Shown piece after piece: positions 7,694 through 18,969 of a stretch of 64,000 nucleotides of DNA. The translations under genes and the position numbers were made by a program. This stretch comes from Haloterrigena salifodinae (GTDB lineage: Archaea; Halobacteriota; Halobacteria; Halobacteriales; Natrialbaceae), in NCBI RefSeq assembly GCF_003977755.1, contig NZ_RQWN01000004.1, positions 310,001-374,000 of the forward strand, in the 5' to 3' direction. Under the pieces are notes generated by a model. The model worked only from the letters and a program-made list of their open reading frames with translations, made no database searches and was not told the origin of the DNA. Position 1 is the first letter of the stretch; each line of letters opens with the position of its first letter.

Positions 7694-8707
7694 ATGGCAG
7701 AACAAGGACGGCGACCGCTATTGAAAGCTATCGGTGGCACGGCAGCACTCGGTATCAGCACGCTTGCCGGCTGTATCGGCGACGGAACGTCGGGAGACAA
7801 CTTCAAGATCGCTGCGACGTTCGGGCAAGACCACTCGCAAGTGCAACTCCTCGAGCGGTGGGGAGAGAACCTCTCGAACGAGACCGACGGAAGTCTGAGC
7901 ATCGAGTACGTGAGCCTCGGCGGGGAGGAAGACCACATAAGCGCCACGTCCTCCGGGAGTATCGCCGGTCACGGCGTGGCGATGACGGCGCTCACCCAGT
8001 CGTACGGCACCGAGTACGGGTTCCTAGAAGCGCCGTTCGTCGCCGAGGACTGGGAGCACTTTCAGGCGCTCATGGACGAGTACGTCTACGGCGACGGCGG
8101 GTTCAACGATCAGCTGATCGAGGACGCCAACCAGCGAATCCTGGGGTCGGCGTTCCGCGGTCTTCGAGGAACGACCGCGAACAAAGAAGTGAGCGAGCCG
8201 TCCGATATCGAGGGCGTCAAGATGCGACTCCCCGAGTTCGAGACGTGGGTCAACAGCTGGGAAGAGATCGGCGCCGAGGCGACGCCGGTTCCGTACGACG
8301 AACTGTACCAGGCGCTTCAGACGGGCGTCGTTTCGTCCTCCGAGGGGCCAATCGCGCAGTTCGTGGATTCCAGCCTGTACGAGGTGCAGACGCACTTCTC
8401 GCAGACCGATCATCTTCTCCAGACGCAGAACTGGGTGATCAACGAGGATCGGTGGCAAGGGCTGGACGAAAGCGAACAAGAGGCGATGCAGACGGCGCTG
8501 GACGAAGCGATCGAGTGGGGTAACGAAGAGACCCGATCCCAAGCGGACGAACTCCTCCAGATGGTGCAAGACGAACACGACGTAACGGTCGTCTCCAGTG
8601 ATGACGTCAACCAAGACGCGTTCCGGAGCGCCGCGGAACCGCAGTTAGAGGAGTTCTTCAGCGACCGCTGGAAGCCGAGCCTGGAAGACGTACAGTCGTT
8701 AGCCTAA
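7694..8707 (+). CDS. dctP: TRAP transporter substrate-binding lipoprotein (DctP family)
   Basis: The external solute receptor of a tripartite ATP-independent periplasmic transporter, 337 residues. The N-terminus carries twin arginines (RRPLLK) and a lipobox ending at Cys27 (TLAGC), pointing to Tat export and lipid anchoring. The body has DctP landmarks, including the region around MRLPEFETWVNSWEEIGAEATPVPYDELYQALQTGVV, where the family binds the carboxylate of its ligand through an arginine. Known ligands are organic and sugar acids. The permease genes follow at 28 nt, and acid-sugar enzymes lie next door, so import of an aldonate-type acid is inferred. Confidence 0.92.
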   Translation: MAEQGRRPLLKAIGGTAALGISTLAGCIGDGTSGDNFKIAATFGQDHSQVQLLERWGENLSNETDGSLSIEYVSLGGEEDHISATSSGSIAGHGVAMTALTQSYGTEYGFLEAPFVAEDWEHFQALMDEYVYGDGGFNDQLIEDANQRILGSAFRGLRGTTANKEVSEPSDIEGVKMRLPEFETWVNSWEEIGAEATPVPYDELYQALQTGVVSSSEGPIAQFVDSSLYEVQTHFSQTDHLLQTQNWVINEDRWQGLDESEQEAMQTALDEAIEWGNEETRSQADELLQMVQDEHDVTVVSSDDVNQDAFRSAAEPQLEEFFSDRWKPSLEDVQSLA

Positions 8708-8734
8708 CGTGGATGGACGTGAATAGAGAACACC

Positions 8735-9286
8735 ATGACTAGCATACGAGATATAGTCACCCTGAATTTCGCGATGTCCGTCCGACCCCTGCTGGACAGG
8801 ATAGAACAGCTGCTGGGCGGCCTCGGGAAGCTCACCCTGGCGACGATGGGAGTTATCGTCGGACTACAGATCATCTTTCGATTCGTTCCGGTGAGTTTCC
8901 CGAGCGTTTGGACGACCGAGGTCGCTCGATACATGCTCGTGTTCATGACGCTAACCGGCGTTCCGTACGCGATGCGGCGCGACAATCACATCTCGGTACG
9001 GCCGCTGTTGCGGATGGTATCCGATTCGATCCGGAACCTCATGATCTCGCTTTCGAACGTCTTGGTCGTCGTGATGTGCTCGCTCATGATACTATCCGGT
9101 TTCAGCGTCCTGGAACGAACGATGTTGCAGTCGCTTCCGACGGTCGGCTGGCTGAAAGTCGGATACCTGACGGTCTACCTCATCGTCGTGTTCGGCCTCT
9201 GTATCGTGTTTATCTTCGAGCAGACGGCGCGGATTTGGACCGGCGAAGTCACGGAGCCGGACGCCCGGGTGGTCGATGATGACTGA
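8735..9286 (+). CDS. dctQ: TRAP transporter small permease (DctQ family)
   Basis: A 183-residue membrane protein with four predicted helices, as expected for the small TRAP subunit. The family segment R-Y-M-L-V-F-M-T-L-T-G-V-P-Y-A-x-R-R-D-x-H is visible at about residues 67-88. It starts 28 nt after dctP and its last codons overlap the start of dctM, so the three are one operon. It forms the membrane complex with the large subunit. Confidence 0.9.
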   Translation: MTSIRDIVTLNFAMSVRPLLDRIEQLLGGLGKLTLATMGVIVGLQIIFRFVPVSFPSVWTTEVARYMLVFMTLTGVPYAMRRDNHISVRPLLRMVSDSIRNLMISLSNVLVVVMCSLMILSGFSVLERTMLQSLPTVGWLKVGYLTVYLIVVFGLCIVFIFEQTARIWTGEVTEPDARVVDDD

Positions 9287-10583
9287 TCCGATACTGCTGG
9301 CCGTGCTGTTCGTCGTGCCGTTGCTAGTCATGTACGTGTTCGGCGTTCACGTCGCGTTCGCCCTCGGGTTAGTCTCCGCGCTGGTGATGCTGCTCGGCGT
9401 CGGTCCGATGTGGACCGTCAATACGTTTGCAAATCAGATGTACAGTTCGCTGAACAGCTTCACGCTGCTCGCGATCCCGTTTTTCCTGTTCGCGGGACGA
9501 ATGATGAACTCCATCGGCCTGACGGACGACATCTTCGACTTCGCCGAAGCTCTGGTGCGTCCGCTCCCCGGCGGACTCGGCCACGTGAACGTCGTGGTGA
9601 GTATTATCTTCTCCGGGATGAGCGGCGCAGCGGTGGCCGACGCCGCCGGACTCGGATCCATCGAGTACGAGGCGATGACCAGCCGCGGGTACGACGGCTC
9701 GACCGCGGCCGGAATCACCGGCGCGTCCTCGACCATCGGACCGATCATCCCGCCGAGTATTCCGATCATCGTCTACGGCGTGACCGCGCAGGTCTCGATC
9801 GGGGCCCTCTTTCTCGCCGGGATCGTCCCCGGTCTGGTGATGGGCCTCGGCCTCATGGCGTTCATCACCGTCGGCGCGCTGAGGAGCGGCACGGCATCCG
9901 TGGAGTCGTTCAGCCTCCGCGAACTCTTCGAGTCGAGCGTGCGGGCGCTGCCCGGCCTCATCGCACCGGCAATCATCATTGGCGGCATCGCGACCGGCCT
10001 GTTCACGCCGACCGAGGCGGCCGCCGTCGCCGGAATCTACGCGGTAGCGCTGGGCGGGCTCTACTACCGGAACCTCGATCCGAGCACGCTCTGGTCCATC
10101 CTCGGCGACACGTTCGAGGACACCGCCGTGCTGACGCTCATCATCGCGTTCGCGAACGTCTACGGGTTCGTGCTCACCATCTCGGGCCTGCCGACGGTCC
10201 TCACCGAGCAGCTCCTGACCATCTCGTCGGAGCCGACGGTCCTGCTCCTCCTGTTCGCCCTGTTCTTCCTGATCCTCGGCACGTTCATGGAGACCATCGC
10301 GATCATCATGATCGTCGTCCCGATCGTCGCCCCGATACTCCCGCAGATCGGCATCGATCCGATCCACTTCGGCATCGTGATGATGGTCGCCCTGATGATC
10401 GGCCTCATCTCGCCGCCGTTCGGCGTCGTGCTCTTCGCGCTCGAACGCGTCACCGATCTGGATATCGAGGACATCATCAGAGGGATCATCCCGTACTACG
10501 TTCCGTTGCTCGGGGCCCTGGTGCTGCTGATCCTCTTCCCCTCGGCTGTCCTCGCCGTCCCTCGCTACTTCGGTCTCGTGTAG
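9276..10583 (+). CDS. dctM: TRAP transporter large permease (DctM family)
   Basis: The ion-coupled translocation subunit, 435 residues, with about twelve hydrophobic segments. The DctM pattern is plain: IPFFLFAGRMMNSIGL early, GASSTIGPIIPPSIPIIVYG in the first half and a conserved LISPPFGVVLF near the end. Start ATG at 9276 overlaps dctQ by 11 nt; a second in-frame ATG at 9279 is equally plausible. Transport is driven by a cation gradient, probably sodium in a halophile (inference). It ends the TRAP operon; the next gene is convergent. Confidence 0.93.
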   Translation: MMTDPILLAVLFVVPLLVMYVFGVHVAFALGLVSALVMLLGVGPMWTVNTFANQMYSSLNSFTLLAIPFFLFAGRMMNSIGLTDDIFDFAEALVRPLPGGLGHVNVVVSIIFSGMSGAAVADAAGLGSIEYEAMTSRGYDGSTAAGITGASSTIGPIIPPSIPIIVYGVTAQVSIGALFLAGIVPGLVMGLGLMAFITVGALRSGTASVESFSLRELFESSVRALPGLIAPAIIIGGIATGLFTPTEAAAVAGIYAVALGGLYYRNLDPSTLWSILGDTFEDTAVLTLIIAFANVYGFVLTISGLPTVLTEQLLTISSEPTVLLLLFALFFLILGTFMETIAIIMIVVPIVAPILPQIGIDPIHFGIVMMVALMIGLISPPFGVVLFALERVTDLDIEDIIRGIIPYYVPLLGALVLLILFPSAVLAVPRYFGLV

Positions 10584-11784: not shown

Positions 11785-12573
11785 ATGCCCGATTGGTTAG
11801 CGGATGATGTAGCGGTAGTTACTGGCGGCTCGAGCGGTAACGGACGAGCGATCAGCCTGACGTTGGCAGAACACGGCGCAAACGTCGTCGTCGCCGACCT
11901 GCAGTCGGACCCCCGCGGCGGGGGCGTTCCGACCCACGAGAAAATTCAGGAAGAGTACAGTCAGGAAGCGGCCTACGTCGAATGCAACGTCGCCAACGTT
12001 TCGGACCTCCGCGACGCGATCGACGTCGCCGACGAGTTCGGCGGCGTCTCGATCATGGTCAACAACGCCGGCATCACGCACAGCGACGAGTTCCTCGAGA
12101 CGACCGAGGAGGACTTCGACCGAATCATGGATATCAACGTCAAGGGTGTCTTCTTCGGCGCCCAGGCGGCCGCCGAGAGCATGGTCGAAGCGGGGCGGAG
12201 CGGCTCGATCATCAACATGTCCAGCGTCACGTCGTTCATCGGCCGCGGCGACGGCGTGCGGTACTCCACGTCAAAGGGCGCGGTCGAATCGATGACGTAC
12301 GCGCTGGCGGATCGACTCGGACACGAGGGTATTCGCGTGAACTCGATCCACCCGAGCATGATCGAGACGCCCATGACGGCGGACGACCTCGAGCTGATCG
12401 ACAACGAGTCGTCCGAGGAACACGAGCAGGCGACGCCGCTCGGTCGGATCGGCCAGCCCCAGGACGTGGCGGACACCGCGCTGTACCTCGCCAGCCCGCT
12501 CGCGAGTTTCATCAACGGCGAGACGATGGTCGTCGACGGCGGCGTCACGACCACGATGGGCGGCGGCTACTGA
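11785..12573 (+). CDS. Short-chain dehydrogenase/reductase (SDR)
   Basis: A 262-residue classical SDR, cytoplasmic and NAD(P)-dependent. The cofactor motif TGGSSGNGRAI lies near residue 11, NNAG near residue 90, the catalytic Ser in MSSVTS and the Tyr-Lys pair in YSTSKGAVESM. The C-terminus ends with the usual NGETMVVDGG. Family members oxidise sugar or polyol hydroxyls. The setting, between a sugar-acid transporter, an aldolase and a lactonase-like hydrolase, suggests it may oxidise an aldose to its lactone or act on an acid-sugar intermediate. The ATG is nearly leaderless behind a strong TATA box. Confidence 0.9.
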   Translation: MPDWLADDVAVVTGGSSGNGRAISLTLAEHGANVVVADLQSDPRGGGVPTHEKIQEEYSQEAAYVECNVANVSDLRDAIDVADEFGGVSIMVNNAGITHSDEFLETTEEDFDRIMDINVKGVFFGAQAAAESMVEAGRSGSIINMSSVTSFIGRGDGVRYSTSKGAVESMTYALADRLGHEGIRVNSIHPSMIETPMTADDLELIDNESSEEHEQATPLGRIGQPQDVADTALYLASPLASFINGETMVVDGGVTTTMGGGY

Positions 12574-12842: not shown

Positions 12843-12869
12843 ATGATACATCCGTTATAATTGTCAAGT

Positions 12870-13763
12870 ATGGTGCATTCCACCTGGGGAGATGCGTTCC
12901 TAAAGCGGGAAGTCGAAGCGAGCGAACCGGACCGGCTTACCGTCTGGTATATGGGCTGTAACGGGTTCGTACTTCGGTCGCCCGAAGCGACGGTTTACGT
13001 CGACCCGTATTTCGGGGACGGCGATCCGCCGACGTGGTACCGAATGATACCCGTCCCCCTCGATCCCGAGGACGTGACCGACTGTGACGCTGTCCTCATC
13101 ACACACGAGCACTTCGACCACTTCCATCCCGATTCGTACGGTCCGATGGTGGAGAACCTTGATGCGGACCTGTACGCGTCCGAGACCTGTTTCGAGTCAC
13201 CGCAGAAGGACTACGCTGAGTTACGCGCCCCGAAGCCCCGGCGCCGGATCGTCGAACCCAACACCTCGTACACCGTCGGCGATTTAGTGATCCACGTTCG
13301 CGAAAGCAACGATCCGGACGCGGTCGGCGATGTCTCCTACGTTATTGAGCACGAGACGGGCACTTTCTTTACGCCCGGAGACAGCCGATTCACCGAAGCG
13401 TTTCACGAAATCGGCACGGAGTTCGATATCGACTTGGGTTCCCTTGCGTTCGGCACTCACGCTCAGGTGTTCTACGGCGACGACTGGGCTTCGTTTACCG
13501 GAGCGGAGCGTCCGCACTCGTCGGCCGGAAAGCTCTACATGAACGAGAACGACGTGATCAAGTCGGCGAATGCTCTCCGACTCGACCGCTTACTCCCGTG
13601 CCATTATGATATGTGGAAGGGCGGATTAGCAGACCCGAAATCGCTGCACGAGCACAGGGCTTCGTTTCCGTTTCCACGGAGTATCGAAATCGCAGAAGTC
13701 GGAGACAGGATGAACGTCGAGGAACACGGCGTGACTCCAATGCGCGATCTCGTCAAGCACTGA
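12870..13763 (+). CDS. Metallo-beta-lactamase-fold hydrolase, UlaG-like
   Basis: A 297-residue MBL-fold metal hydrolase. The metal-binding HxHxDH motif reads THEHFDHFHPDSYG at about residues 82-95; further ligands are suggested by FTPGDSRF and a late LPCHYDMW. The overall pattern follows the UlaG group, whose founding member opens L-ascorbate-6-phosphate lactone. A lactonase role on an acid-sugar lactone is therefore inferred from family and neighbours, not proven. The start is the ATG at 12870; a TTG three codons upstream is less likely given the TATA spacing. It is downstream of the SDR gene but has its own promoter. Confidence 0.82.
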   Translation: MVHSTWGDAFLKREVEASEPDRLTVWYMGCNGFVLRSPEATVYVDPYFGDGDPPTWYRMIPVPLDPEDVTDCDAVLITHEHFDHFHPDSYGPMVENLDADLYASETCFESPQKDYAELRAPKPRRRIVEPNTSYTVGDLVIHVRESNDPDAVGDVSYVIEHETGTFFTPGDSRFTEAFHEIGTEFDIDLGSLAFGTHAQVFYGDDWASFTGAERPHSSAGKLYMNENDVIKSANALRLDRLLPCHYDMWKGGLADPKSLHEHRASFPFPRSIEIAEVGDRMNVEEHGVTPMRDLVKH

Positions 13764-13910: not shown

Positions 13911-14336
13911 TTACGCGCGCTCGTCGACGGGCCGCGGATCTTCGACGAGCTGCATGGGGAGCGGCGTGTCGTGATAATCGAGCGTGGTGATCTTCCAGTC
14001 GATCCCGTCTCGTATCTCGTCGACGAAGCCGTACCCCAGTTCCTCGAGTTCCGCCCGCCGCTGCTCGATATCGTCGACCTCGAACGCGATGTGGAAGAAG
14101 CCGGGGCCGTGCTCCTGGAGGTGTTCATAGTGCCAGCCGCGTTCGCCGGTCGGAGACGTGAACTCGATGATGGTCTCGCCGACCGAGTAGAGTGCGACCT
14201 CGCAGTGGTCGTCCTCGAAGTGGACCTTCTGAATCCGCTCCATGCCGAAGTCGTCCTCGAACACGGCCGTATATTCGTCTATCTCTCGCTCGACGCCGCC
14301 GATAAGTATCGCTATGTGGTGGATTCGTTCGAACAC
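13911..14336 (-). CDS. VOC-superfamily protein (glyoxalase/methylmalonyl-CoA epimerase-like)
   Basis: A 141-residue protein with two VOC beta-alpha-beta modules: FERIHHIAILIGGVE at the N-terminus and PGFFHIAFEVDDIEQRRAELEELGY in the second half, each contributing a metal-ligand His. An ETIIEF segment supplies a likely glutamate ligand. It resembles methylmalonyl-CoA epimerase and glyoxalase I in layout. The start codon is GTG at 14336; no in-frame ATG is available. It is antisense to its neighbours. An epimerase or isomerase role on a sugar-acid intermediate is possible, but the substrate cannot be read. A broken copy lies at 12721-12810. Confidence 0.8.
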   Translation of the reverse strand: MFERIHHIAILIGGVEREIDEYTAVFEDDFGMERIQKVHFEDDHCEVALYSVGETIIEFTSPTGERGWHYEHLQEHGPGFFHIAFEVDDIEQRRAELEELGYGFVDEIRDGIDWKITTLDYHDTPLPMQLVEDPRPVDERA

Positions 14337-14481: not shown

Positions 14482-15285
14482 ATGCCAAGAGACATTCGAC
14501 TAGTCGATAGCATCACCCAGCCGAAAGAGTCGCGAGGGTCGGCCATCGTCGCCGGCAGTCACGGCGGCATCTCGTCGGGGCGATACGCGGCACAGCTCGG
14601 GCTCACCGGGATCGTCTTCAACAACGCCGGCGTCGGGAAAGACGACGCCGGCATCGAATCGCTCTCCTACCTTGAGGAGCTCGGCCTGCCGGCCGCGACG
14701 GTCGACAACCAGAGCGCGCGAATCGGCGACGGCGTGGATATGTCTCGCGGCGAGATCAGCCACGTCAATAGCGTCGCCGAAGACTGCGGTTGCGAAGTCG
14801 GCCAGTCCGCCCTCGAGTGCGCGGCGACGATGCACGACGCGGACGTCGAGCCCGTCGAAGAAGACGTCGGAAGCGAGATGACCCAGACGAGGGTCGAAGA
14901 CGGCGAGGTGCCGGTCTGGACGCTGGATTCGATCGGGCTGATCTCCGAGGAACACGAGGGGGCGATCACGGTCACCGGCAGCCACGGCGAGCGCCTCGCC
15001 GGCGAGTTCGACTCCTACATCCAGGCCGACATCGCGGGAATCACGCTCTTCGACGCGGGCGTCGGCAAAGACGACGCCGGCATCGGTCGGCTTCGAACGA
15101 TGAACGACCGAGGGATTCCCGCCGCGACCGTCGACGTCGAGTCGGCACGGATCGGCGATTCGAAGTCGGCACTGGACGGCGGCGTTCTCAGCCACGTCAA
15201 CGATGTCGCCTCGGATCTCGGCATCGAACCCGGCGACAGCTGTTCGAGCTTTGTCGAAACCGTTCGCGCGTCCGTACAGCAGTGA
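14482..15285 (+). CDS. Two-repeat protein of unknown function in acid-sugar locus
   Basis: I do not recognise this 267-residue protein. It consists of two homologous halves, about residues 8-109 and 148-249, offset by 140. Each half has a D-S-I start, a GSHG turn (residues 25-28 and 166-169), an identical AGVGKDDAGI segment (49-58 and 192-201), then G-x-P-A-A-T-V-D and SARIGD, and ends with SHVN. There are no membrane segments or signal peptide, so it is cytoplasmic. The strict conservation of KDD, SARIGD and GSHG in both halves suggests paired ligand or catalytic sites. It lies 75 nt upstream of the RuBisCO-like gene and reads the same way, so it probably serves the same pathway. Assigning an enzyme activity would be speculation. 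Confidence 0.8.
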   Translation: MPRDIRLVDSITQPKESRGSAIVAGSHGGISSGRYAAQLGLTGIVFNNAGVGKDDAGIESLSYLEELGLPAATVDNQSARIGDGVDMSRGEISHVNSVAEDCGCEVGQSALECAATMHDADVEPVEEDVGSEMTQTRVEDGEVPVWTLDSIGLISEEHEGAITVTGSHGERLAGEFDSYIQADIAGITLFDAGVGKDDAGIGRLRTMNDRGIPAATVDVESARIGDSKSALDGGVLSHVNDVASDLGIEPGDSCSSFVETVRASVQQ

Positions 15286-15360: not shown

Positions 15361-16626
15361 ATGTCACGGATACGCGCAACCTACCGAATCGAAACCCCCG
15401 ACGAGCCCGAGCACGCGGCCGAGGCGATCGCAAACGAACAGTCCTCCGGGACCTTCGTCGAGGTCTCGACCGAAACGGACGGCCTCGCCGAACGACACGG
15501 TGCGACGGTCGAGTCGATCACCGAACTCGAGGTCGTTGACGAACCGTCCCTTCCGGGCTCCGCTCCGCCCGCCGGCGCCGCGGAGTCACCGACGTACACG
15601 CGAGCGGAGGTCGACCTCTCGTACCCCGTCGGGAACATCGGGACGTCGCTGCAGAATCTGATGACGCTGATCGCGGGGAACCTCTTCGTGCTGAAGGAGC
15701 TGTCCGGCGTTCGGCTCGTCGACCTCTCCCTGCCCGAGGAATTCGCGGCCGCCCAACCGGGACCGCAGTTCGGCATCGAGGGGACCCGCGAACTCCTCGG
15801 CGTCCAGGATCGACCGATCATCGGGAGCATCATCAAGCCCAGCGTTGGCCTCTCTCCGGAGGAGACCGGCGACGTCGTCGAGACGCTCGTCGAGGCGGGC
15901 GTCGACTTCATCAAGGACGACGAACTCATCGCCAGCCCGCCCTACTCTCGGGTCGAAGACCGCATCGCGGAAGTGATAGACCCCATCCGCCGCCACGAAG
16001 CGGAGACCGGGAAAAGGGTGCTGTACGCCTGTAACGTCACCGGCGACGTCGACGAAATGCTGGAGCGACACGACGCGGTGAAGGAAGCCGGCGGCAACTG
16101 CCTCATGGTGAGCCTCCGCAGCGTCGGTCTCGCTGGCGTCCAGAAACTCCGCGAGGAGTCGGACCTCCCGATCCACGGGCACCGAAACGGATGGGGCGCG
16201 CTCTCCCGGTGTCCCCAGCTGGGGTTCAGCTACGAAGCGTGGCAGAAGCTCTGGCGACTCGCCGGCGTCGACCACCTGCACGTGAGCGGCATCCGAAACA
16301 AGTTCACGGAATCGGACGAATCGGTCGTCTCCTCCGCCATAGAGTGCCAGACGCCGATCGCTTCCGACGACGACACGGTGATGCCCGTGTTTTCCTCGGC
16401 TCAGTGGGCCGGACAGGCGCACGACACCTACGAGTCCGTCGGGAACACCGACCTCATGTACCTGGCGGGCGGAGGCATCCACGGCCACCCCGACGGACCT
16501 CGAGCGGGCGTCGCTCACCTCAAGCAAGGGTGGGAAGCCGCGATGAAGGGCGTCCCGCTCGACGAATATGCAGAGACGCACGACGAACTGCGAACCGCGA
16601 TCGAGTACTACGGAGACCATGACTGA
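15361..16626 (+). CDS. RuBisCO-like protein (OiaC/OiaX-type candidate)
   Basis: A 421-residue protein of the RuBisCO large-subunit superfamily. Residues aligning with RuBisCO active-site positions are visible: Lys159 in IIKP (RuBisCO K175), the carbamate-lysine motif KDDE at 185-188 (K201, D203, E204), HGHR at 272-275 (H294, R295), His307 and Lys314 (H327 and loop-6 K334) and GGGIHGHPDG at 370-379. The second lysine of KPK is Ser161, so it is not a true CO2-fixing RuBisCO. Known relatives beside DUF1537 kinases decarboxylate or split 3-oxo-isoapionate 4-phosphate. The gene overlaps the kinase gene by 8 nt, supporting that role. The ATG at 15361 is preferred over an upstream GTG at 15298. Confidence 0.88.
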   Translation: MSRIRATYRIETPDEPEHAAEAIANEQSSGTFVEVSTETDGLAERHGATVESITELEVVDEPSLPGSAPPAGAAESPTYTRAEVDLSYPVGNIGTSLQNLMTLIAGNLFVLKELSGVRLVDLSLPEEFAAAQPGPQFGIEGTRELLGVQDRPIIGSIIKPSVGLSPEETGDVVETLVEAGVDFIKDDELIASPPYSRVEDRIAEVIDPIRRHEAETGKRVLYACNVTGDVDEMLERHDAVKEAGGNCLMVSLRSVGLAGVQKLREESDLPIHGHRNGWGALSRCPQLGFSYEAWQKLWRLAGVDHLHVSGIRNKFTESDESVVSSAIECQTPIASDDDTVMPVFSSAQWAGQAHDTYESVGNTDLMYLAGGGIHGHPDGPRAGVAHLKQGWEAAMKGVPLDEYAETHDELRTAIEYYGDHD

Positions 16627-18019
16627 TACCGACCTACTGCTGACGTTCTACGGAGACGACTTCACGGGATCGACGGACGCGTTGGAGGGATTGGCCGACA
16701 ACGGCGTTCGGGCAGTCCTCTTCACGAGACCGCCGACTACGGAAGACTTGGAACGCTTCGATGACCTCGACGCCGTCGGTGTCGCGGGCGTGAGTCGCAC
16801 CATGACGCCGGAGGAGATGGAGTCGGAGCTCCCGTCGGTTTTCGACGCGCTCGGCGAACTGAACGCTCCGATTGTCCACTATAAGGTCTGTTCGACGTTC
16901 GATTCCTCGCCGGAGGTCGGGAGCATCGGGACCGCGATCGACGTCGCTCAAGACGCGTACGACTCGCCGTTCGTGCCCGTCTCTCAGGGAACAGAGGTCC
17001 CGCACGGGCGCTACGTCGCGTTCTCGAATCTCTTCGCAGAACGCGGCGGGGAGATGTACCGGATCGACCGCCACCCGACCATGCGCGACCATCCGGTCAC
17101 CCCGATGCACGAGAGCGACCTCCGGCGCCACCTCGGAGAGCAGACGAGTCGTCCGATCGGCCGCGTCGACCAACGGTTCCTCGACGACTACGAGGCCGCC
17201 GAGGCGGAGCTCACGGGGACGATTCGCGAGAACGAGGACGAAATCGTCGTCCTCGACGCGCTGGACACGGACCACCTCGAGACGATCGGACGCCTCCTGT
17301 GGGACCGCGCGACCGACGCGTCGGGCCCGCTGTTCGCGGTCGGCTCCTCTGGTCTCGAGCATCACGCCCTCGTCAGTCACTGGGACGAGACCGGCGAGAT
17401 CGATCGGGATGCGACGTACTTCGAGAAGCGAGAGCCGGCGGACAACATCGCCGTCATGTCCGGCAGCGCCTCCGAAGAGACGGCGGCGCAGATCGACTGG
17501 GCGAACGAACACGGGTTCCGCCTCGTTTCGATCGACACCGAGCGTCTGGTCGACCCCGACCAGAAGAGCGACGCGCGGGCCGCCGCAGTCGAGGAGGCCC
17601 TCGCCGCGCTGGACGACGGCGAGAGCGTCGTCCTCTACTCCGCCCGCGGTCCGGACGACCCCGCTATCGACGCCACACGAGCGGCGTTCGAGGAGCACGG
17701 GACGGCGGAGAACCTCGAATCGTATCTGGGGCACCAGCAGGGGGTCATGTTCCGCGAACTCCTCGAGCGATCGGACGTGACGCGCGCCTGCGTCGCCGGC
17801 GGGGACACGAGCAGCCACGTGATCTCCGAGCTGAACCTCGACGCGCTCGAGGCGATCGCCCCGGCCGCGCCCGGCGGGCCGCTGTGCCGAGCGCACTCGG
17901 CGACTACGGCGTTCGACGGCCTCGAGCTCGCGCTCAAAGGCGGGCAGGTCCATACGGAAAACGACGAGTTCGACTACTTCGGCGTCGTCGAGCAGGGCGG
18001 ACTCGAAAACGCCGACTGA
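16619..18019 (+). CDS. DUF1537 four-carbon/branched acid-sugar kinase (OiaK-like)
   Basis: A 466-residue acid-sugar kinase. The N-terminal substrate domain opens with LLLTFYGDDFTGSTDALE, the diagnostic YxADDxTG-like motif; the C-terminal nucleotide domain contains GGDTSSHVISEL and a PGGPLCRA segment. Known family members phosphorylate threonate, erythronate, 3-oxo-tetronates or 3-oxo-isoapionate. Its start overlaps the stop of the RuBisCO-like gene by 8 nt, indicating translational coupling and a shared pathway. Given that partner and the ApnO-like dehydrogenase next door, 3-oxo-isoapionate kinase is the best guess. Confidence 0.9.
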   Translation: MTDTDLLLTFYGDDFTGSTDALEGLADNGVRAVLFTRPPTTEDLERFDDLDAVGVAGVSRTMTPEEMESELPSVFDALGELNAPIVHYKVCSTFDSSPEVGSIGTAIDVAQDAYDSPFVPVSQGTEVPHGRYVAFSNLFAERGGEMYRIDRHPTMRDHPVTPMHESDLRRHLGEQTSRPIGRVDQRFLDDYEAAEAELTGTIRENEDEIVVLDALDTDHLETIGRLLWDRATDASGPLFAVGSSGLEHHALVSHWDETGEIDRDATYFEKREPADNIAVMSGSASEETAAQIDWANEHGFRLVSIDTERLVDPDQKSDARAAAVEEALAALDDGESVVLYSARGPDDPAIDATRAAFEEHGTAENLESYLGHQQGVMFRELLERSDVTRACVAGGDTSSHVISELNLDALEAIAPAAPGGPLCRAHSATTAFDGLELALKGGQVHTENDEFDYFGVVEQGGLENAD

Positions 18020-18129: not shown

Positions 18130-18969
18130 CTACGCCACTTCGGACGCGATCTCCTCGAGCTTCTCCTCGGAAAATACTCGGTCTTTCCAGTCGGCCCTGA
18201 AGAGGTCCCGTTCGGTCTCGTCGATGATCTCCCGCGCGCCGTCGGAGAACGGGAAGTCAGTGAATCCGAACACGATCCCCAGTTCGACCCTGAAATGGCC
18301 GAAGAGGAAATCCCGTGCCGCCTGTTCGGGGACCCCCTGCTCGACCACGTGATCGTACGCTTCCCGGACGGCGTACAGACACGAACCGAGCACCATTTCG
18401 ACGAGCGCCGGCTCCAGCAGGAACATCTGCTCTGTCGTCAGTTCGTGGGCGCGGCGGACCGGCGCATAGATGTCGCGTGCGAGGGCCTCGCCGCGCTCGT
18501 AGTCCTCGTCGGGGCCCTGATGAAGGGCACAGACGATGTCCTGTTCCTCTCGACCCCGGCCGCCGAACCAGTCCGGATCGTCGCGGCTCAAATCCGAACT
18601 CGCATCGATGATCGACGGGTGGGCGGGGTGGGTGATGAAGTAGGAGATATCGTCCCGCTCGGCGAGCGTGTCGGCGTACGCCGCCGCGGGGTCCAGGAGC
18701 ACGACCATCGTTCCGCTGTCGATCTTCGGGACGATATCTTCGGAAATCGGCCCGATGAGGTCGTCCGGAACCGCCATGACGACGATCCCGGCGCCGTCGA
18801 GCGCCTGCGCTTCGTCGACCGCGGAGACGCCTCGATCGGCGAGTCTCTCCCGGCCCTCCTCGCTCGGTTCCACGTACCGCACGTCGTATCTGGCGTTATC
18901 CTTGAGGCGGTCGGTGATTCTGCAACCCATCTTTCCGCCGGCTCCCAGAAGAGCGACTCGAGTAGTCAT
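18130..18969 (-). CDS. NAD-binding dehydrogenase, ApnO-like (D-apionate oxidoisomerase candidate)
   Basis: A 279-residue protein with an N-terminal Rossmann motif, VALLGAGGKMG, and a helical C-terminal domain of the phosphogluconate-dehydrogenase-C type. Conserved-looking stretches include VVMAVPDD, ITHPAHPSI and LLEPALVEM. D-apionate oxidoisomerases (ApnO) belong to this kind of protein and form 3-oxo-isoapionate, the substrate of an OiaK kinase and a RuBisCO-like enzyme. Both genes sit immediately left, converging on this one. I chose the ATG at 18969, where the Rossmann domain begins; the frame is open far upstream but non-conserved there. Specificity is inferred from neighbourhood. Confidence 0.78.
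   Translation of the reverse strand: MTTRVALLGAGGKMGCRITDRLKDNARYDVRYVEPSEEGRERLADRGVSAVDEAQALDGAGIVVMAVPDDLIGPISEDIVPKIDSGTMVVLLDPAAAYADTLAERDDISYFITHPAHPSIIDASSDLSRDDPDWFGGRGREEQDIVCALHQGPDEDYERGEALARDIYAPVRRAHELTTEQMFLLEPALVEMVLGSCLYAVREAYDHVVEQGVPEQAARDFLFGHFRVELGIVFGFTDFPFSDGAREIIDETERDLFRADWKDRVFSEEKLEEIASEVA

Follow-up and report, generated by a model that had tools for sequence, protein, structure and literature searches.

A duplicated DUF1805-like protein encoded beside RuBisCO-like and TPP-enzyme genes in haloarchaea and bacteria

The window, the whole stretch of 64,000 nucleotides of Haloterrigena salifodinae DNA that we analysed (contig NZ_RQWN01000004.1, positions 310,001 to 374,000), contains a gene for a 267-residue protein made of two repeats (14482..15285, plus strand), with its ATG at 14482 and a stop codon that ends at 15285. 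Upstream of it lie the genes for a TRAP transporter (7694..10583, plus strand; binding protein, small and large permease, in an order kept in the L009 and L010 clusters), an HpcH-type aldolase on the other strand, an SDR dehydrogenase (11785..12573, plus strand), a metallo-beta-lactamase-fold protein (12861-13763, plus strand) and, on the other strand, a VOC/glyoxalase-fold protein (13911..14336, minus strand; PF13669, 6e-15) that is conserved next to the two-repeat gene in haloarchaea. The metallo-beta-lactamase-fold protein is weakly similar to L-ascorbate-6-phosphate lactonase (71 bits, cut-off 306), and the annotation of the Natrinema and Haloarcula clusters shows no copy of its gene in the equivalent position. 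Downstream follow the genes for a RuBisCO-like protein (15361..16626, plus strand), a DUF1537-type kinase (16619..18019, plus strand), a PGDH_C-type dehydrogenase on the other strand that is possibly an ApnO-like D-apionate oxidoisomerase (18130..18969, minus strand; PF16896, 3e-44), and an IclR regulator. An earlier reading of this DNA from the sequence alone had placed the two-repeat gene just 5' of the RuBisCO-like gene, and indeed the former ends at 15285 and the latter starts at 15361. The kinase start and the RuBisCO-like stop overlap by 8 bases (16619-16626), suggesting translational coupling of this pair.

In connection with the downstream genes, the best NCBIfam models are OiaX for the RuBisCO-like protein (NF042437, 509 bits) and OiaK for the kinase (NF042436, 449 bits), both below the cut-off of 700, and the nearest solved chain to the RuBisCO-like protein is 3nwr. 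Though it falls below the OiaX equivalog cut-off, the RuBisCO-like protein may act like OiaX. OiaK and OiaX belong to the D-apiose/apionate pathway, reportedly described by Carter and colleagues in 2018, a paper that PMC6302742 cites; to our knowledge, the two-repeat protein is not part of the pathway as described. The substrate of OiaK and OiaX, 3-oxo-isoapionate, is 2,4-dihydroxy-2-(hydroxymethyl)-3-oxobutanoate, a dihydroxy-acetolactate. RuBisCO-like proteins of the apionate pathway decarboxylate or transcarboxylate/hydrolyse 3-oxo-isoapionate-4-phosphate (PMC6302742 summary).

The two-repeat protein is internally duplicated and has two near-equivalent halves, namely repeat 1 (about residues 4-119; 14491..14838, plus strand) and repeat 2 (about residues 144-266; 14911..15279, plus strand), each a DUF1805-like alpha/beta domain. 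The halves are identical in 48 of 106 aligned columns, their alignment scores 205 against 34±6 for 1000 shuffles (maximum 74), and the family profiles of half 1 and half 2 match each other with an hhalign probability of 100% (E 6e-43), so that the two-halved organisation proposed from the sequence alone holds. The motif GSHG recurs at residues 25 and 166 (offset 141), AGVGKDDAGI at 49 and 192, PAATVD at 70 and 213, SARIGD at 78 and 221 (offset 143 for all three), and SHVN at 93 and 237 (offset 144). The same reading had listed the first four motifs at a constant offset of 140 residues; the repetition is confirmed, but the spacing of 141-144 is nearly, not strictly, constant. The two copies of AGVGKDDAGI are also identical at 28 of 30 DNA positions. 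The host genome has a single copy of the two-repeat gene, and homologues with unbroken frames occur in both bacteria and archaea, showing that the gene is real.

Next to nothing in the family databases recognises this protein. We found no match in NCBIfam, and the Pfam match to DUF1805 (PF08827) reaches 20.1 bits (E 7.5e-4), below the gathering cut-off of 29.5, in keeping with the earlier description of an unrecognised protein outside any characterised family. At a looser threshold (E up to 1), however, 48 of the 54 family members do match DUF1805, the strongest with E 6.4e-9. Against a comparison profile of 12 archaeal single-domain DUF1805 proteins, the halves gave hhalign probabilities of 95.5% and 94.1%, each over the C-terminal two thirds of the profile, while 40 column-shuffled controls stayed at or below 7.4% and the reversed control at 0.1%. 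Weak phylum-wide matches in methanogens likewise proved to be single-domain DUF1805 proteins (for example in genome G235), and the DUF1805 relatives matched also include proteins of Bacillus subtilis and Methanosarcina acetivorans. The single-repeat profile search that the sequence-only reading had proposed thus leads to a family for which we found nothing functional in the literature on DUF1805, YunC and TA1206.

Structure prediction, proposed there as well for the repeat and the full protein, gave confident AlphaFold2 models of both the whole protein (mean pLDDT 93.6, pTM 0.90) and half 1 alone (pLDDT 95.1, pTM 0.90). After realignment, the top PDB match was 1QW2, the DUF1805 protein TA1206 of Thermoplasma acidophilum, with Z 7.7 for the whole protein and Z 8.1 for half 1 (rmsd 2.2 over 74 residues), the runner-up for half 1 having Z 5.1. 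The Foldseek E-values are all weak (0.16-0.26 for 1QW2, without significance; 0.03 at best, for half 1 against SteA), and the fold claim therefore leans on the realigned Z-scores and the sequence profiles. Taken with the sub-threshold Pfam score, these identify the two-repeat protein as a distant, duplicated relative of DUF1805 that lies outside DUF1805 by Pfam's criterion. Each half has the DUF1805 fold, but DUF1805 proteins consist of one domain of about 100 residues and the two-repeat protein of two copies. Their own motif, GxVxCGYxD, differs too: its Cys-Gly (C37/G38, invariant in 12 of 12 DUF1805 sequences) is absent from the two-repeat family consensus, which instead has GSHGG, NDAG-GKD, SARIGD and SxxN. 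No homologue of known activity was found for the two-repeat protein, and DUF1805 is likewise a family without an assigned function. Other matches were at chance level: asparaginases in a solved-structure sequence search with the protein, DepH and others in a solved-structure search with family profiles, and DNA polymerase IV through a local G-V-I-S-x-x-N-x-A stretch that also explains Pfam IMS matches.

We then considered which residues are kept in both halves across an alignment of 54 homologues. Positions conserved in at least 80% of sequences in both halves number 22, against 8.9 expected, and include eight polar pairs: D9/D149, S26/S167, H27/H168, D48/D191, D54/D197, R80/R223, S93/S237 and N96/N240. 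In repeat 1 these residues lie in the GSHGG loop, which comes after a beta strand (14551..14571, plus strand; S26 and H27, conserved in 54/54 and 51/54), the N-N/D-AGVGKDDAGI loop (14620..14655, plus strand; residue 48 and D54), the SARIGDG loop (14710..14733, plus strand; R80, along with D83) and the SHVN motif (14758..14769, plus strand; S93 and N96, the latter in 54/54). Residue 48 is Asp in 51 of the 54 homologues and Asn in the window protein. Repeat 2 has the corresponding GSHG loop (14974..14994, plus strand; S167 and H168, the latter in 54/54), DAGVGKDDAGI loop (15049..15084, plus strand; D191 and D197), SARIGD loop (15139..15162, plus strand; R223) and SHVN motif (15190..15201, plus strand; S237 and N240, the latter in 54/54). 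According to the secondary structure of the AlphaFold2 model, the GSHGG, NDAG-GKD and SARIGD loops each come after strands and S93/N96 sits at the end of one; alpha/beta folds usually carry their active or binding site on such post-strand loops, which would be putative sites here. The pairing of polar residues between the halves and their conservation across the homologues suggest that the protein carries two equivalent putative sites, in agreement with the earlier emphasis on duplicated polar motifs.

To place the protein among its relatives, we scanned 84,980 prokaryote genomes by alignment. There were 357 relatives among the candidates, and we analysed the best 80, calling genes in unannotated loci by similarity; this selection covers the nearest members of a larger set, and Achromobacter is over-represented in it. 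Of these best 80 loci, 60 encode a TPP enzyme nearby and 20 have none in the examined stretch; among the 46 whose flanks extend 5 kb or more in each direction, 37 encode one. An acetolactate-synthase-like enzyme occurs in 50/80, E1alpha in 36/80 and E1beta in 36/80, and an E2 gene in none of these 80. Some relatives adjoin fatty-acid or aromatic catabolism genes. Clusters of the acetolactate-synthase-like enzyme with E1alpha/E1beta, lacking nearby E2/E3, recur with the two-repeat gene (L019-L095, for example L026, L076 and L084) and are apparently unnamed. They differ in this respect from acetoin/pyruvate dehydrogenase-type clusters (E1alpha, E1beta, E2, E3), which have E2. Among the known components of such clusters (AcoX, AcoD and others) we know of none that the two-repeat protein resembles. 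A distant relative on an Aminobacter plasmid (L015, 8633-10735) has an N-terminal extension, MNRRIFLGSSALLAVSLLTY..., that is absent from other members and looks, from its sequence, like a secretion signal; the second gene upstream of it is an RraA gene.

Three other haloarchaeal relatives do lie within acetoin/pyruvate dehydrogenase-type clusters, in the order VOC, two-repeat protein, E2, (SDR), E1alpha, E1beta, together with TRAP genes; SDR and E3 genes are present in two of the three. Their VOC, SDR and TRAP types match those of the window, the SDR of the window being about 50% identical to theirs. The window gene order itself recurs on Natrinema and Haloarcula plasmids, and its core of two-repeat, RuBisCO-like and kinase genes in Natronosalvus. 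In a tree of 91 family members, whose root is not fixed, the E1/E2-linked haloarchaeal clade (support 100/97) is sister to the clade linked to the RuBisCO-like protein (100/100), both lie inside one haloarchaeal group (91/98), and the TPP linkage is spread through the bacterial part. The sister relationship and the bacterial TPP linkage suggest that the RuBisCO link arose late, through a switch of partner in a single lineage.

What could one protein do beside such different partners? Both acetolactate synthases and E1 enzymes of the acetoin type work on acyloins and 2-hydroxy-3-oxo acids, and the OiaK/OiaX substrate is, as noted above, itself acetolactate-like. Since the partners act by family on such compounds, an enzyme that prepares an intermediate of this kind is the most economical hypothesis, and we favour it at a probability of roughly 40%: the duplicated DUF1805-like protein would be a small catabolic enzyme with two equivalent sites, acting on a carbonyl intermediate before C-C cleavage. 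Each domain would bear one set of residues, made up of Ser-His from GSH(G), Asp from NDAG..K-D, Arg from SAR-I-GD and Ser/Asn from S-x-x-N. The substrate would be an acyloin or a 2-hydroxy-3-oxo-acid (acetolactate-like), handled immediately prior to cleavage, and the reaction would most likely be an isomerisation, epimerisation or hydration, although this is a guess. In most lineages the cleaving partner would be a TPP enzyme (acetolactate-synthase-like and/or E1alpha/E1beta), which the OiaK-type kinase and OiaX-type RuBisCO-like protein would replace in the plasmid lineage of the window. The proposed link to acyloins and acetolactate draws on the structures of the compounds and on the annotation-level function of the neighbours, where neither the acetolactate-synthase-like enzyme, nor the E1 pair, nor the window RuBisCO-like protein is an assigned equivalog. 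As it stands, an unnamed, conserved and widespread family accompanies C-C-cleaving enzymes of catabolism across haloarchaea and several bacterial phyla. If its members are enzymes, the current picture of these pathways misses a step, the uncharacterised acetolactate-synthase-like/E1 clusters and the haloarchaeal RuBisCO-like clusters could be tested jointly, and the DUF1805 fold would gain a first functional clue. More tentatively, the family might supply a new step on acetolactate-like or acyloin intermediates that is common to two mechanistically unrelated cleavage routes, the TPP enzymes of most bacteria and the haloarchaeal kinase/RuBisCO-like pair; if true, the DUF1805 fold would thereby acquire its first function.

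The main rival is a sensor or regulatory role, which would fit the same neighbourhoods. The protein would then be a non-catalytic accessory or ligand-binding component, either a subunit or an effector sensor of C-C-cleaving enzymes with two ligand sites, and we regard this as unlikely, yet worth serious consideration. Acetolactate synthases do have regulatory subunits, a symmetric two-site architecture suits a binding protein as well, and operon coupling to the acetolactate-synthase-like gene is tight, the distance being 250 bp or less in 41 of the best 80 of 357 loci. The lineage of the window, however, has two unrelated enzymes instead of a TPP partner, so that a dedicated subunit would have needed to change partners, and the conserved Ser-His, Asp, Arg and Asn set appears richer than mere binding requires. 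Improbable in turn is a hydrolase of the esterase, lactonase or deacylase type that would use the G-S-H-G-G loop to open or trim a substrate entering the cleavage steps. With a strand before it and a helix after it, that loop is reminiscent of the elbow of alpha/beta hydrolases, and 4 of 54 members have weak Pfam alpha/beta-hydrolase matches (best E 7e-4), but these are local and the fold match is to DUF1805 rather than to alpha/beta hydrolases.

We rate just as improbable the suggestion, made in the sequence-only reading, that the protein is a missing step dedicated to the RuBisCO-like/kinase pathway, here the haloarchaeal OiaK (apionate-type) route. The link on which it was based is real, but limited to a small haloarchaeal plasmid lineage: the two-repeat gene lies directly 5' of the RuBisCO-like (OiaX-type) and OiaK-type kinase genes in the window and on Haloterrigena, Natrinema, Haloarcula and Natronosalvus plasmids, and a remnant persists in Halomarina. 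Among the best 80 of 357 relatives, by contrast, neither a RuBisCO-like nor a kinase gene was found near the two-repeat homologue in any examined stretch (0/80). The survey of DUF1537/RuBisCO-like neighbours, in which a lack of conservation was to count against the link, has therefore turned against it, and the TPP-enzyme neighbourhood takes its place. Conversely, among six haloarchaeal genomes with an OiaX-type protein at least 63% identical, three have the two-repeat gene adjoining, one has it elsewhere (G102) and two are without it (G030, G066). The gene was likewise not found in canonical bacterial PGDH_C-oiaK loci, in a haloarchaeal DUF1537 kinase locus, or in the records of haloarchaeal plasmids with DUF1537 kinases 48-53% identical, and the haloarchaeal relatives mentioned above pair it with E1/E2. 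On the Halomarina sp. PSR21 plasmid (NZ_CP119993.1; L017, 10001-10273), a deletion of about 170 residues fuses half 1 (at residue 51) to half 2 (at residue 222). This collapse and the OiaK/OiaX-type loci without the gene indicate that it is dispensable for RuBisCO-like/kinase loci. Rather than being a step dedicated to the RuBisCO-like pathway, the protein is probably an enzyme that assists catabolism more generally.

Membership of the RraA-like (HMG/CHA aldolase; PF03737) or phosphohistidine swivelling-domain (PEP-utilizers, PF00391) families, considered for a common strand-helix-strand pattern in each half, the visual similarity of an NDAG..KD..GI..L..GIPA stretch to both, and low-Z matches to swivelling domains, for example residues 777-866 of rifampin phosphotransferase (Z 5.0), is most improbable, as the profile probabilities are 0.1-0.2% and 0.2-0.4% (from alignments that may include a few misframed rows) against 94-95% for DUF1805.

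Lastly, two of the plasmid loci contain genes that read in more than one frame. In Halomarina sp. PSR21 the kinase adjoining the two-repeat remnant reads in two frames and the RuBisCO-like gene is open. On the plasmid of Natrinema sp. SYSU A 869 (L009, 8849-12562) the RuBisCO-like and PGDH_C genes each match in two frames, reflecting either a frameshift or a sequencing error, and the two-repeat gene is intact.
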